A stretch of DNA of 64,000 nucleotides from the NCBI GenBank assembly GCA_902756345.1, contig CACVQR010000004.1, positions 62,001-126,000 on the forward strand. The letters are read 5' to 3'. Of this stretch, positions 2,291 through 6,686 are shown piece by piece. Position numbers and translations under genes: made by a program. Position 1 is the first letter of the stretch. The number at the start of each line of letters is the position of its first letter. Under the pieces are notes generated by a model, which worked only from the letters and a program-made list of their open reading frames with translations, was not told where the DNA came from and made no database searches. The DNA comes from Fibrobacter succinogenes (GTDB taxonomy: Bacteria; Fibrobacterota; Fibrobacteria; Fibrobacterales; Fibrobacteraceae).

Positions 2291-4390
2291 TTAAGGAACA
2301 AAGACCCTGTAACTTGTTCCCATATACTTCAAAATATACATTCCTCGGTGTTCAAGCGCAATAGACAAATCACTTCCCGAGGAAATTTCTCGCTTTATCA
2401 AATTACCCTGCACATCAAACAGAGCAACCGGTTCTGCAAAAGTCAAACCACTAAGATAGATTCGACCTCTTTCCACTGAATATTTCAACGACGCACTTAC
2501 CAAAGGCACCTGAATCGAAATCGTTCCCGACGAAGACCCCAGTTCCGCAGAACTCGACGAACTTTCTACCAGCGAGGAACTGGAGCTCTTTTCTTTCAAG
2601 AGCCAGTCGGCATTTTCTACAGATGTGTATATGCTCGTATCACGAGAGAACACGTACTGCGGTCCAACATTCTGGGTCTTGTCACCATTTTTGAGGAGCC
2701 AGTTACCAATCTTCTTTCCCGTATTGGGGTCAGAAATACTATCGCCCCAAACGGCATGACCATCGCAATCCGTATAGACTGTATCGAACACAATATTGTT
2801 CACATAGCGCACAATGCCGTATGTAGATTTGCGGCCATCAAGGGCAAGCACCGGGAAACGCCCGTTGTGGCACCAAATATTTCGGTTAGATACCGTCTGG
2901 AACTTCGTATTCAACATCCACGCAAATTGCGGAGACTCCATCAGGGACTCTTCAAGCCCAGTCGTATCGCCTGGAAAAGCTTTTTCTAGCATCACGGAAT
3001 CATAATGATTGCCTACATGCTCACCACCCAGGATTACATTGTAAAGCGGAGCCTTGTTCCCAACATCCGAGATTTTATAAAACACTGCGTACGAATTATA
3101 GACGCTACCCGAATCGGCTCCGACAAGGCCGCCCGTATACATGCCAACAGTGTTAGAAACTTTGGTTCCAAGAATAATCCATGAAGCTCGAACACCACAA
3201 TCCTCTACAACACCTTTATCAGACTGTCTCGCCACGATGCCACCCGCATAGGCTGCGGGGCTAATTTCAATACCACCAGGATTCGTAAGATTTGCAGACA
3301 ACCGAAGCGCTTTGGAGTCATCGATAGAACCATAGTAGGATTTAGAAATCTTTCCCAAATTATAGGCTGCAATGCCGCCAATCGCCACGCCACCGTCACC
3401 GGCACGTCCCAGAGAGCCCGTATATTCCGCCCACTCTACAAAACCACGATTTTCGCCGACAATGCCCGCAACAAGTCCAGTAACAGTCTCCATATCGCCG
3501 ACCATCTTGACATGGTCAAGCGTTCCCTTGTTAATGCCACAAATGCCTCCCAGCACCAAAGGAGAATCATCCTTCAGGTCGCCTTCAACACGAGATTCCG
3601 AAACGGTTCCTTCGTTTGCACCCACGACGCCCCCCATGAACAACGAAATCATCGAACCATGAGGGGGCACAATCAAATCTTTCACGTAAGCATGAGTCAC
3701 CGAACCACGATTGTGTCCAACAACTCCGCCCACATATAAATACATCGTATAAGCATTCACCATTATCGAGGCTGCCGTAGTAGCGGACTTCACAATTTCC
3801 GTAGAATAGGTTCCTTTCGCTACGGCCTCACAATCAATCACACGGACACTATCGACAAAGCCTCGGTTTTCCCCAACCACGTTCCCGACAAAAGGATAGA
3901 AAAGCGGCATATTCGCGATTTCATCAAAAGAGTAGACCGTATCAGAGCCAAGGTGTTCCACCTGAAGGACACTCTTTTCTAGCGTGAAATTCTTGACGAC
4001 GCCGTTTTCGCCGACAAACCTGAAGAACCCGTTAAAGACGGAATCCACATTTTCTTGCGAATACTCGGAATGCGCCCCCAAAATCGTCTTGCCCGCGCCA
4101 TCGAAGATACCTTCGAACGCAAGAGAATCAGACGGACCGATAGGGTTCCAATAATTGGTATCGCCCGACACCGAATCCCAAAGGACGATATCGTTTTTCA
4201 GGACAGCATTAATTGCGGTTTTGCCCGAAGCGACCTGTTTCGAGAACCAGGCCAGTTCCTTAGCCGAAGAAATCTCGTAATAAGATTTCCCGCCTAAAGA
4301 AACTTCTGCCGGTTGAGCGGCAAAATCAGTCCACTCTGCAGCAAAGACCCCCACGGCTACCGCCATAATAGATAGTATTACTCGTAGCAC
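2291..4390 (-). CDS. Secreted GLUG-repeat surface protein with Ser-rich linker and Por-like tail
   Basis: The preferred start is GTG at 4390, which lies just after AAGGAGG and opens directly into a signal peptide (LRVILSIMAVAVGVFAAEW); an ATG 18 bases upstream has no ribosome site. The body contains GLUG-like repeats such as GGVVGHNRG, GGVVGANEG, GGICGINKG and AGIVGENRG, typical of adhesin-like beta-helical surface proteins. A serine-rich linker precedes a final ~80-residue beta domain like the type IX secretion sorting tails seen on Fibrobacter proteins. Likely role: cell-surface adhesion or substrate contact, an inference from the architecture. It stands alone between leuA and the small membrane protein. 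Confidence 0.75.
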   Translation of the reverse strand: MLRVILSIMAVAVGVFAAEWTDFAAQPAEVSLGGKSYYEISSAKELAWFSKQVASGKTAINAVLKNDIVLWDSVSGDTNYWNPIGPSDSLAFEGIFDGAGKTILGAHSEYSQENVDSVFNGFFRFVGENGVVKNFTLEKSVLQVEHLGSDTVYSFDEIANMPLFYPFVGNVVGENRGFVDSVRVIDCEAVAKGTYSTEIVKSATTAASIMVNAYTMYLYVGGVVGHNRGSVTHAYVKDLIVPPHGSMISLFMGGVVGANEGTVSESRVEGDLKDDSPLVLGGICGINKGTLDHVKMVGDMETVTGLVAGIVGENRGFVEWAEYTGSLGRAGDGGVAIGGIAAYNLGKISKSYYGSIDDSKALRLSANLTNPGGIEISPAAYAGGIVARQSDKGVVEDCGVRASWIILGTKVSNTVGMYTGGLVGADSGSVYNSYAVFYKISDVGNKAPLYNVILGGEHVGNHYDSVMLEKAFPGDTTGLEESLMESPQFAWMLNTKFQTVSNRNIWCHNGRFPVLALDGRKSTYGIVRYVNNIVFDTVYTDCDGHAVWGDSISDPNTGKKIGNWLLKNGDKTQNVGPQYVFSRDTSIYTSVENADWLLKEKSSSSSLVESSSSSAELGSSSGTISIQVPLVSASLKYSVERGRIYLSGLTFAEPVALFDVQGNLIKREISSGSDLSIALEHRGMYILKYMGTSYRVFVP

Positions 4391-4431
4391 AAATCCTCCT
4401 TCTTTCATTGCCCTAGAGTTTTTAAAGACTG

Positions 4432-5997
4432 CTACAGCTTTTTATACAGCAGATTCACGCCGCCGAAGAGGGCGCGCATGTTTGCCTTGAGCGTATCGCT
4501 AGAGACGCCGCGGCCTTCGACTTCGACGTTGTTCGCCTTCAGCACAATGCGGCTGAGGCCTCGACCCGCCCACATTTTGTCCTTTTCAGGCACCACGAGC
4601 TGACGGTATTTGACGAGTTCCACCGGCATGCCGATTTCACGCATGAGCATGAGGGCCGCCTCGATCGGGCCTTCGGCCGTCACGGACTTCACCAAAGATT
4701 CGCCATCCTTCTTGAAGTGGAAAATGAAGCGATTCTCGTCGGGGATAACCTCGATGTTGTTGAACACCAGGCGACCGTTCACATTCACGAAATGTTCGCG
4801 GAACACATCCAGCACGCGTTCGGCAGACAGTTCGCCTTCTTTTTCGCTGCAAGCCTTCAGAATCGGCTGCAGTTCGGCGGCTTCGGCAAGAGACATCTTG
4901 TAACCGAACTTCGTGATGATTTCGTACACGGCGGTACGGCCACTCTGGCTGGTGAAGCTGAGCGAATCGTTCTGGTGGCGACCGATAATCGAGTAGTCGA
5001 TGGGGCGGTAGGCACCCTTCTTCATGTCCTTCGTCTTGGAGGCGCCATCCTGGTGGATGCCGCTACGGTGCACGATTGCTTCGGCGCCAATCAACGGAGC
5101 GCGACTATAGATGCTGATACCCGACCACTGAGAAATCAAGATAGCCGTTTCATAAATGCGCTCCATGTGCAGGCCCGTATTCACGCCGGAGTTATGCAGC
5201 GCAACCGCGACTTCGTAGAAGTTCGTATTGCCGCAGCGTTCGCCCAGGCCGTTCAGCGCGACTTCCAACTGGGTTGCACCCACGAAGAAGCTTTCGACGG
5301 TTGCGGCCGTCGCCATACCCAGGTCATTATGGCAGTGCACCGAAATCGTAATATCCTTCGGCAGGGCTTCGTACACCTGCTTAATCTGATTCACGTACAG
5401 GAACGGACGATAACGTTCCACCGTATTCGGCAGGTTGATGGTCGTCGCACCGGCTTCGACCACGGCCTTCAGCACGTCAATCACGAAATCCATATTTTCG
5501 AGGCAGTCACCGAAATGTTCGGCGCTGAATTCCACGTCACCCTTGTCGCCAACGAGCGATTTTGCAAACTTCACGCAATGAACCGCCTTTTCCTTCACCT
5601 GTTCCGGCGTCATGTGCAGCACATGTTCCATCGAGAGCGGGCTTGTGGCGAGGAAGGTATGGATTCGCGGGTGCGGTGCGAACTGCACAGCCTCCCAGCA
5701 GCGCTGGATATCGCTTTCCACACAGCGGGCCAGGCCCGACACCACGATGCGCTTTGCGACTTCGTCGCCTTCTTCGGCCATTTTCGCTGTGAGCTGCGCG
5801 AGTTCCTTGCACGATTCAAAGTCCATCTCGCTCGAAGCCGGGAAACCGACTTCGGCACCCTGCACGCCGAGCTTCAAGAGTTGCAGGTACACGTCCTTTT
5901 TCTGGGCATTGTTCCAAGGCTTCGGGAGCGCCTGGTTTCCGTCACGCAGCGTGACGTCGTAGAAGAAGGGTTGTCTTGCATTCGTATTTTCGCTCAT
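4432..5997 (-). CDS. leuA: 2-isopropylmalate synthase
   Basis: LeuA condenses acetyl-CoA with 2-oxoisovalerate in the first committed step of leucine synthesis. The 521-residue product shows the catalytic N-terminal motif DVTLRDGNQ, the metal-binding SVHCHNDLGMA and the conserved NGLGERCGN. A C-terminal segment of about 130 residues occupies the position of the leucine-binding regulatory domain. The ATG at 5997 is chosen because AAGGAGATAAGG precedes it; a TTG ten codons upstream lacks a ribosome site. No other leu genes are adjacent. Upstream lie a Leu-rich leader peptide and a terminator (6071-6227), so expression is probably controlled by attenuation. Confidence 0.95.
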   Translation of the reverse strand: MSENTNARQPFFYDVTLRDGNQALPKPWNNAQKKDVYLQLLKLGVQGAEVGFPASSEMDFESCKELAQLTAKMAEEGDEVAKRIVVSGLARCVESDIQRCWEAVQFAPHPRIHTFLATSPLSMEHVLHMTPEQVKEKAVHCVKFAKSLVGDKGDVEFSAEHFGDCLENMDFVIDVLKAVVEAGATTINLPNTVERYRPFLYVNQIKQVYEALPKDITISVHCHNDLGMATAATVESFFVGATQLEVALNGLGERCGNTNFYEVAVALHNSGVNTGLHMERIYETAILISQWSGISIYSRAPLIGAEAIVHRSGIHQDGASKTKDMKKGAYRPIDYSIIGRHQNDSLSFTSQSGRTAVYEIITKFGYKMSLAEAAELQPILKACSEKEGELSAERVLDVFREHFVNVNGRLVFNNIEVIPDENRFIFHFKKDGESLVKSVTAEGPIEAALMLMREIGMPVELVKYRQLVVPEKDKMWAGRGLSRIVLKANNVEVEGRGVSSDTLKANMRALFGGVNLLYKKL

Positions 5998-6070
5998 TTT
6001 TTCCTTATCTCCTTGCCTGTCCAACAAGGCTCAAGTTCGTTTTTACGTCCAAAAAATAGAAATTTGGCTT

Positions 6071-6102
6071 AAAAAAAGAACCCGCATCCTCATTGGAGCG
6101 GG
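6071..6102 (-). terminator. Rho-independent terminator in the leuA leader (attenuator)
   Basis: Read on the minus strand, CCCGC (6102-6098) plus TCC pair with GGA plus GCGGG (6085-6081) around a small loop and one bulge, followed by TTC and seven T (6077-6071). It lies between the leader peptide stop and leuA, as expected of an attenuator rather than a terminator for an upstream gene. Confidence 0.8.
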
Positions 6103-6155
6103 CCTTATGGTTTAAATCCTTGGGTTAAAACTCTAAAATCGTCTTGAACCTATGC

Positions 6156-6227
6156 TTAAAAACCGGCTTGCGCTCCGAGAGCACGTCCTAGTAGGTTAAT
6201 AAGTCGTAGATCCAGAATCATGTTCAT
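6156..6227 (-). CDS. leuL: leuA leader peptide (Leu-rich, 23 residues)
   Basis: ATG at 6227, TAA ending at 6156. Six of 23 residues are leucine (positions 5, 7, 9, 12, 13 and 17), using CTG, CTA, CTT and CTC codons, with two adjacent Leu at 12-13; there are also two Ile. The last Leu codon lies in the hairpin that competes with the antiterminator. A second ATG is at 6221. No clear ribosome site precedes either, and a weak TTGCCA-N17-TACCTT promoter would place transcription start close to the first ATG. Confidence 0.7.
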   Translation of the reverse strand: MNMILDLRLINLLGRALGAQAGF

Positions 6228-6295
6228 GTGCAGAAAGGTAATAAAAGTAGGGATTTTTGGCAAGAGCCCTGTCCCCTTGTTTTTTTTCAAGAAAC

Positions 6296-6612
6296 TTAGC
6301 TCCAAAGCCCCTGTTTACTCCAATTTTCAGGAAAACCCATTGCCTTCAATTTTGATAGAGGTTGCTTTGAAAGTAATACTTGCAATTGTTCTTTGATAGA
6401 TGAATTCGAAACAAAGCTCTGCTCAAGGTTCCCTTTTCCAAATCATGCGTGTCTGAGTCAACTTCAAAAGGTTTCCAATAAGACGCCAATCGAAAATAGC
6501 TGATATTTGAAAACTGCTGTCGTGCAAAGGATTCGCTATCAATAACTAATCCCCGACTAGTCAAAATTGATATTTGTTCAGGAATGTCGATGGGCCGTTT
6601 AGAGTATTCCAT
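6296..6612 (-). pseudogene. Abortive infection (Abi_2/AbiD-F family) gene with internal deletion
   Basis: The ATG at 6612 begins a normal Abi_2 N-terminus (KRPIDIPEQI, LTSRGLVIDSES, NISYFRLASYW) that runs to about residue 70. A different frame then carries a normal Abi_2 C-terminus (KLKAMGFPENWSKQGLW) ending in TAA at 6296. The middle of the protein, well over 100 residues in intact relatives, is missing and the join shifts the frame, so the gene should be non-functional. Intact members act as phage-defence or toxin-like proteins. The promoter and leader RNA upstream remain well formed. Confidence 0.75.
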
Positions 6613-6686
6613 ACTTACTCCACGGCATAAAAAACGAAGTCCCACCGTGGTACGCATTGTTAAGAGGCGAGGTGGGAACTGTTGCC
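6613..6686 (-). ncRNA. Pseudoknot-forming leader RNA upstream of the Abi gene (abiF-RNA-like)
   Basis: Two perfect 6-bp inverted repeats interleave: CCCACC/GGTGGG (6641-6646 with 6671-6676) and CCACGG/CCGTGG (6620-6625 with 6645-6650), sharing two bases at 6645-6646, which is a pseudoknot-type layout. A good sigma-70 promoter (6691-6719) would start transcription near 6685, at the base of the structure. The RNA ends at the Abi start codon. The abiF RNA motif is a published structured RNA found upstream of Abi_2-type genes; the match here is from recollection of that pattern, not a covariance search. Confidence 0.6.

Follow-up and report, generated by a model that had tools for sequence, protein, structure and literature searches.

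A predicted leucine attenuator, probably translated leaderless, upstream of leuA in Fibrobacter and across the class Fibrobacteria

Introduction

Control of leu genes through a leucine-rich leader peptide has been described in several forms. In the leu attenuator of Salmonella, replacement of the CUA control codons by CUG lowers the sensitivity of the system (PMC1183508). Streptomyces carries leaderless leucine leaders before leuA (LeuL1) and before leuS (LeuL2), of which LeuL1 has no typical Rho-independent terminator (PMC8079986), and the leuA region of Actinobacteria has been described as a pseudoknot, the LEU element, whose base stem joins the run of Leu codons to the leuA Shine-Dalgarno sequence (PMC1262725). 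Attenuators of leuA, trpE and ilvB are known from Corynebacterium glutamicum, where the leuA leader has four consecutive Leu codons, and the title of a reference cited in the same article names an ilvB leader made without any ribosome site (PMC4046766). A 2013 survey limited to Rfam motifs pointed to the γ-proteobacteria as the possible origin of amino-acid attenuators, with few transfers (PMC3766115).

The locus analysed here lies in a 64-kb stretch of Fibrobacter succinogenes DNA (the window). The initial annotation had proposed a leucine attenuator upstream of leuA and regarded such an element as undescribed in Fibrobacterota; our search of the open-access literature agreed, returning no report of one in Fibrobacter or its phylum. 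Comparison across the class Fibrobacteria makes it highly probable that the leader is a classical ribosome-mediated transcription attenuator that ties leuA expression to charged leucyl-tRNA. The features that carry this reading are a conserved leucine-rich open reading frame (ORF) and promoter geometry, covarying helices and a fixed distance between the Leu codons and the shared pairing segment.

Results

The leuA locus and its leader

The leuA gene occupies positions 4432..5997 of the window on the minus strand (ATG at 5997) and encodes a 2-isopropylmalate synthase of the LeuA2 type (NCBIfam NF042434, E 2e-163, over the curated cut-off). Its Shine-Dalgarno sequence, AAGGAGA, lies at 6008..6014 (minus). 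Across Fibrobacteraceae this sequence is entered by the 3' arm of a hairpin, CTTTGC...GGCAAGG (6008..6035, minus, in the window), which has a variable upper stem and possibly has a translational role. The description of leuA as a lone gene stood in part: leuC and ilvB lie apart from it on other contigs of the same genome (C6 and C5, respectively) and no leucine-pathway gene adjoins it, but a same-strand gene for a GLUG-motif protein (2291..4408, minus) starts approximately 24 nt past the leuA stop codon and could be co-transcribed with leuA in the source genome. Other species carry different genes in this downstream place. Upstream of the leader and on the same strand, a short Abi_2-like gene remnant (6346..6657; E 0.009) adjoins a near-threshold abiF RNA (6640..6676, minus; 36.5 bits vs 37 needed), and the two are apparently what is left of a decayed abortive-infection locus immediately 5' of the leader.

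The leader ORF (6156..6227, minus) has 23 codons and encodes MNMILDLRLINLLGRALGAQAGF*, with six Leu codons in the order CTG, CTA, CTT, CTA, CTA and CTC. It is followed by a Rho-independent terminator (6071..6104, minus) made of a bulged GC hairpin, GGCCCGCTCC-AATGA-GGATGCGGGTT (6104..6079; -15.4 kcal/mol), and the tract CTTTTTTT, with seven T and its last position at 6071. Inside the leader ORF, the segment GGAGCG (segment 2; 6171..6176, minus) can pair either with an upstream arm, GTGCTC (segment 1; 6179..6184, minus), or with CGCTCC (segment 3; 6095..6100, minus). Segment 3 is also the 5' arm of the terminator, the 3' arm of which contains GCGGG (segment 4; 6081..6085, minus), and segment 2 is therefore common to a 1:2 hairpin and a 2:3 antiterminator. 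The frame with six Leu codons, the seven-T terminator between this frame and leuA, and the two pairing options of GGAGCG had all been proposed beforehand, and each was located on the minus strand as described.

Taken singly, the evidence from the window was modest, suggestive and not decisive. At the Leu frequency of the window genes (8.8%), at least six Leu in 22 codons has a probability of about 0.01, and folding of the leader alone was uninformative, with a free-energy z-score of only -1.2. A generic promoter and terminator scan of the window returned nothing at the leader site, where neither the bulged terminator nor the promoter was picked up. Given such modest evidence from a single sequence, conservation of the leader was tested.

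Conservation of the leader in Fibrobacteria

Among the 61 Fibrobacter genomes, leuA was present in 59, and every one of the 57 leuA upstream regions read, including those of F. succinogenes metagenome genomes and of F. intestinalis ATCC 43854, contained a leucine-rich frame together with a hairpin. Across the class, 86 leaders were recovered from families f1 to f5 and most of their genera, and 85 of these have a hairpin and T tract, so that, as in described attenuators, a Rho-independent terminator separates the leader ORF from the first structural gene; the genomes compared are related, hence not independent, and many are metagenome assemblies. Leaders from beyond the genus include MKMILNLNLLNDRLPGLASGAVSVFG, MTKSLNLLLLICNRS, MIHRNFLLALLLSRF, MLKNRTILLLIHL, MSKAHAQLLLLGLSG and MQVKTGALLLLGLLTELDGGLR. 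Retention of the ORF in all 57 Fibrobacter loci and in 86 leaders class-wide removed doubt about the reality of the leader. The leader peptides have little in common beyond Met and the Leu positions, as expected if the codons alone matter.

The element was absent from genera g2 and g4 of the same family, and genus g9 has a weak leader with two Leu codons. In one locus of family f5 (L126) the leucine-rich frame was present and no terminator was recognised. In the other classes of the phylum leuA is mostly found 3' of ilvC in an operon, with no leader at that place, and the non-Fibrobacterota LeuA relatives surveyed (L276-L278) had no obvious leader. One genome of family f14, outside the class (G167, locus L140), has a possible leuA leader, MQFKHNISVYQRALLRLIRPRGGAQG*, with three Leu codons and the pairing GGTGCG:CGCACC.

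Leu accounts for 28.6% of leader codons class-wide in comparison to 8.8% in the window genes, the enrichment in regulatory codons that is characteristic of attenuator ORFs. Within the genus, CTA makes up 38% of the Leu codons in leaders vs 3.4% in 37 window genes, an approximately 11-fold enrichment in a test that counts related leaders as independent.

At gathering score, the window gave no match to any Rfam attenuator family, to Leu_leader (RF00512) or to a T-box, and at E<=10 no Leu_leader match was found in ten loci comprising the window and relatives. Weak matches of leuA leaders to Thr_leader fell below threshold (best 35.6 bits vs 55) and probably reflect general shape only; no attenuator family was identified in the ten loci.

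Promoter position and leaderless translation

A -35 hexamer, TTGCCA (6258..6263, minus), and a -10 hexamer, TACCTT (6235..6240, minus), precede the leader, the latter ending 7 nt 5' of the leader ATG at 6227. Most of the 86 class-wide leaders have TTGCCA or TTGACA with a 17 nt spacer, and the -10 hexamer of most relatives is TATATT. In nearly all of the 86 leaders, whose frames were picked by this promoter geometry because choosing the most leucine-rich ORF gave wrong frames in several loci, a promoter with these or similar hexamers ends 6-7 nt before the ATG, so transcription is expected to start at or beside the ATG itself. No Shine-Dalgarno-like motif was found 4-16 nt upstream of the leader ATG in any of the 86 leaders, whereas 85 of the 86 relatives have such a motif before leuA. 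These two observations make leaderless translation of the leader very probable and strengthen a suggestion already made in the initial annotation. A search of the source genome for the same layout of promoter and ATG returned ten matches vs one for a reversed-pattern control.

Other leaders of this kind were observed in Fibrobacteria. In the source genome, a leaderless-looking Trp leader with a terminator, MMNFVTCTTLNRRWWRGL*, precedes trpE (contig C4, near 347252, locus L181); the RRWW trpE leader is kept in the genus (L206-L215), and an order-level relative has MTNATKSLIRFWWRRNST*. On the same contig, trpB (TIGR00263) is directly preceded by a further leaderless-looking Trp leader with a terminator, MKMNSAIRFNRWWWGSTK* (near 337753, locus L180). 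In a family f5 genome (G165, locus L163), a second acetolactate synthase gene has a leaderless-looking Val/Leu leader, MNNLRLVTLVVSVVVVVDHSLPLG*, also with a terminator. Leaders were sought upstream of Fibrobacter ilvB, hisG and leuC and none was seen. Since Trp leaders precede trpE and trpB in the same genome as the leuA leader, leaderless attenuators appear, as judged from sequence comparison, to be a habit of the Fibrobacter lineage.

Competing RNA helices

Alignment of segments 2 and 3 in 19 distinct but phylogenetically related rows showed 98.2% of cells paired, a share biased upward because segment 2 was located through its best pairing near the stop codon, and 12 cells changed on both sides, a count free of this bias. 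None of 500 shuffles was as good, and slid versions of the alignment were 32-61% paired. Segment 2 typically reads G[GA]AG[CT]G and segment 3 CGCTCC, CGCTTC or CACTCC, the changes on both sides include replacements of GC by AU and of CG by UA, and an order-level relative in family f2 (L112) has a different 2:3 helix, GGCGGGTT:AACCCGCC. The 3:4 helix was paired in 100% of cells and has two covarying pairs. The leaders thus have an antiterminator helix that covaries and is mutually exclusive with the terminator, as is typical of ribosome-mediated transcription attenuators.

A 1:2 hairpin of 4 bp was found in 44 of 60 distinct leaders in comparison to a mean of 30.6 and a maximum of 39 when arms were permuted among leaders, and its arms change together in relatives (TTGCGC/GCGCAA, ACGCC/GGCGT and TCGCT/AGCGA). 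Failure of relatives to keep the Leu codons and both competing pairings had been set beforehand as grounds for abandoning the attenuator reading; both are kept, segment 2, its upstream arm and the terminator being conserved or covarying.

Ribosome position and occlusion folding

The position of the Leu codons relative to segment 2 was nearly fixed. The last permissive Leu codon, defined as lying at least 12 nt upstream of segment 2, was found at a mean distance of 15.05 nt (sd 1.8), in comparison to 18.8 nt (sd 6.8) in codon-shuffled leaders; in 36 of the 60 distinct leaders it starts exactly 15 nt 5' of segment 2. Upstream of the last permissive Leu point 299 of 765 codons are Leu, vs 10 of 352 after it. 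Across distant genera the stop codon shifts between two extremes, 18 nt beyond the end of segment 2 and 16 nt short of it (sd 10.0). A fixed Leu distance with a variable stop codon is expected if the front edge of a stalled ribosome sets the spacing. This edge lies approximately 12 nt past the first A-site nucleotide; a ribosome whose A site holds the last permissive Leu codon would stop barely short of segment 2 and leave it free, and one that had reached the stop codon would cover it.

Partition-function folds of 84 leaders, in which nucleotides under the ribosome were masked, gave a mean probability of the 2:3 helix, before segment 4 is made, of 0.92 with the ribosome stalled at Leu, 0.01 with the ribosome at the stop codon and 0.36 without a ribosome. 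The stalled value exceeded the stop value in all 84 leaders, so that folding and the 15 nt spacing both place the control codons as in an attenuator. Equilibrium folds of the full-length RNA favour the terminator whatever the state of the ribosome, stalling included, and antitermination must therefore be kinetic. In the leader of the window itself, the probability of 2:3 without a ribosome, before segment 4, was 1.0, and since the 1:2 arm does not win here, termination may be weak if the leader is untranslated.

Alternative explanations

Three other explanations of the leader region were considered. Regulation might reside mainly in translation, with a translated leucine-sensing leader acting through the hairpin at the leuA Shine-Dalgarno sequence (CTTTGC...GGCAAGGAG) and the terminator playing an auxiliary part. 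That hairpin abuts the leuA ribosome site, has a nearly invariant lower stem and recurs across Fibrobacteraceae, and the actinobacterial LEU element offers a precedent for pairing between leucine codons and the leuA Shine-Dalgarno sequence (PMC1262725); however, a strong hairpin with a T tract is kept in 85 of 86 leaders, segments 2, 3 and 4 covary, and a link from the leader to the Shine-Dalgarno hairpin was neither seen nor required, which renders this explanation very improbable. Control of leuA by a transcription factor or a leucine-binding RNA, with the leader peptide having a secondary or basal role, is slightly less probable again, as no Rfam riboswitch or T-box was found in the window at gathering scores or above threshold in ten related loci, and the Leu codons are held at positions meaningful only to a translating ribosome.

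The least probable of the three is that the hairpin with its T run merely terminates the upstream gene and that the leucine-rich frame is a chance ORF. The window does contain an upstream candidate on the same strand, the Abi-like gene remnant, and six Leu in 22 codons would arise by chance in about 1% of cases, but ORF, promoter and hairpin remain constant among species with different upstream genes, the promoter separates the upstream gene from the ORF, and helices 2:3 and 1:2 connect the ORF to the hairpin. The ribosome-mediated transcription attenuator remains the favoured reading, and as far as sequence can tell the leader has every defining feature of this class.

Discussion

In the proposed mechanism, RNA polymerase would start at or beside the leader ATG and a ribosome would load straight onto the 5' end of the transcript and translate the peptide. 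When leucine is sufficient, the ribosome would reach the stop codon and cover segment 2, or depart and let the 1:2 hairpin form; with segment 2 unavailable, the 3:4 terminator would fold and transcription would stop near 6071. When leucine is short, the ribosome would stall on the Leu codons approximately 15 nt before segment 2, covering segment 1 and leaving segment 2 free to pair with segment 3 before segment 4 exists, so that no terminator would form and leuA would be transcribed.

A leucine attenuator that covaries throughout the class Fibrobacteria and has no Rfam match indicates that the mechanism either has a long history in this lineage or had an independent origin there, and that such elements escape model libraries. 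Tentatively, and as an idea that falls somewhat short of being probable, the attenuators with leaderless leaders before leuA, trpE and trpB may have been built independently in Fibrobacteria, with the ribosome obliged to load at the naked 5' end emerging from RNA polymerase, so that leaderless initiation itself would time the race between ribosome and polymerase. The leader also gives a handle on the regulation of leucine synthesis in rumen fibre degraders and offers a small, naturally occurring system in which leaderless initiation and the ribosome-footprint rule can be tested.

Among described systems, the leu attenuator of Salmonella and E. coli (RF00512) shares with the Fibrobacter leader a leucine-rich ORF, rare CUA codons (PMC1183508), and an antiterminator competing with a Rho-independent terminator before leuA. 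The Fibrobacter leader differs in having no ribosome site and in starting at the expected transcription start; its leuA is separate from leuC and no sequence similarity between the two was detected. Consecutive Leu codons before leuA are also found in C. glutamicum, a member of another phylum. Where the actinobacterial LEU element is described as a pseudoknot, the Fibrobacter leader bears a terminator with a T tract. Streptomyces LeuL1 and LeuL2 resemble this leader in placing a leaderless ORF that contains a run of Leu codons ahead of leuA or leuS, but the Fibrobacter element, unlike LeuL1, has the form of a classical terminator/antiterminator switch, and its design is closest to that of LeuL2 before leuS. 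In summary, attenuation of this class is itself known, and the Fibrobacter leader is, within the open-access literature searched, new as a record for its phylum, as a leaderless leader found class-wide.
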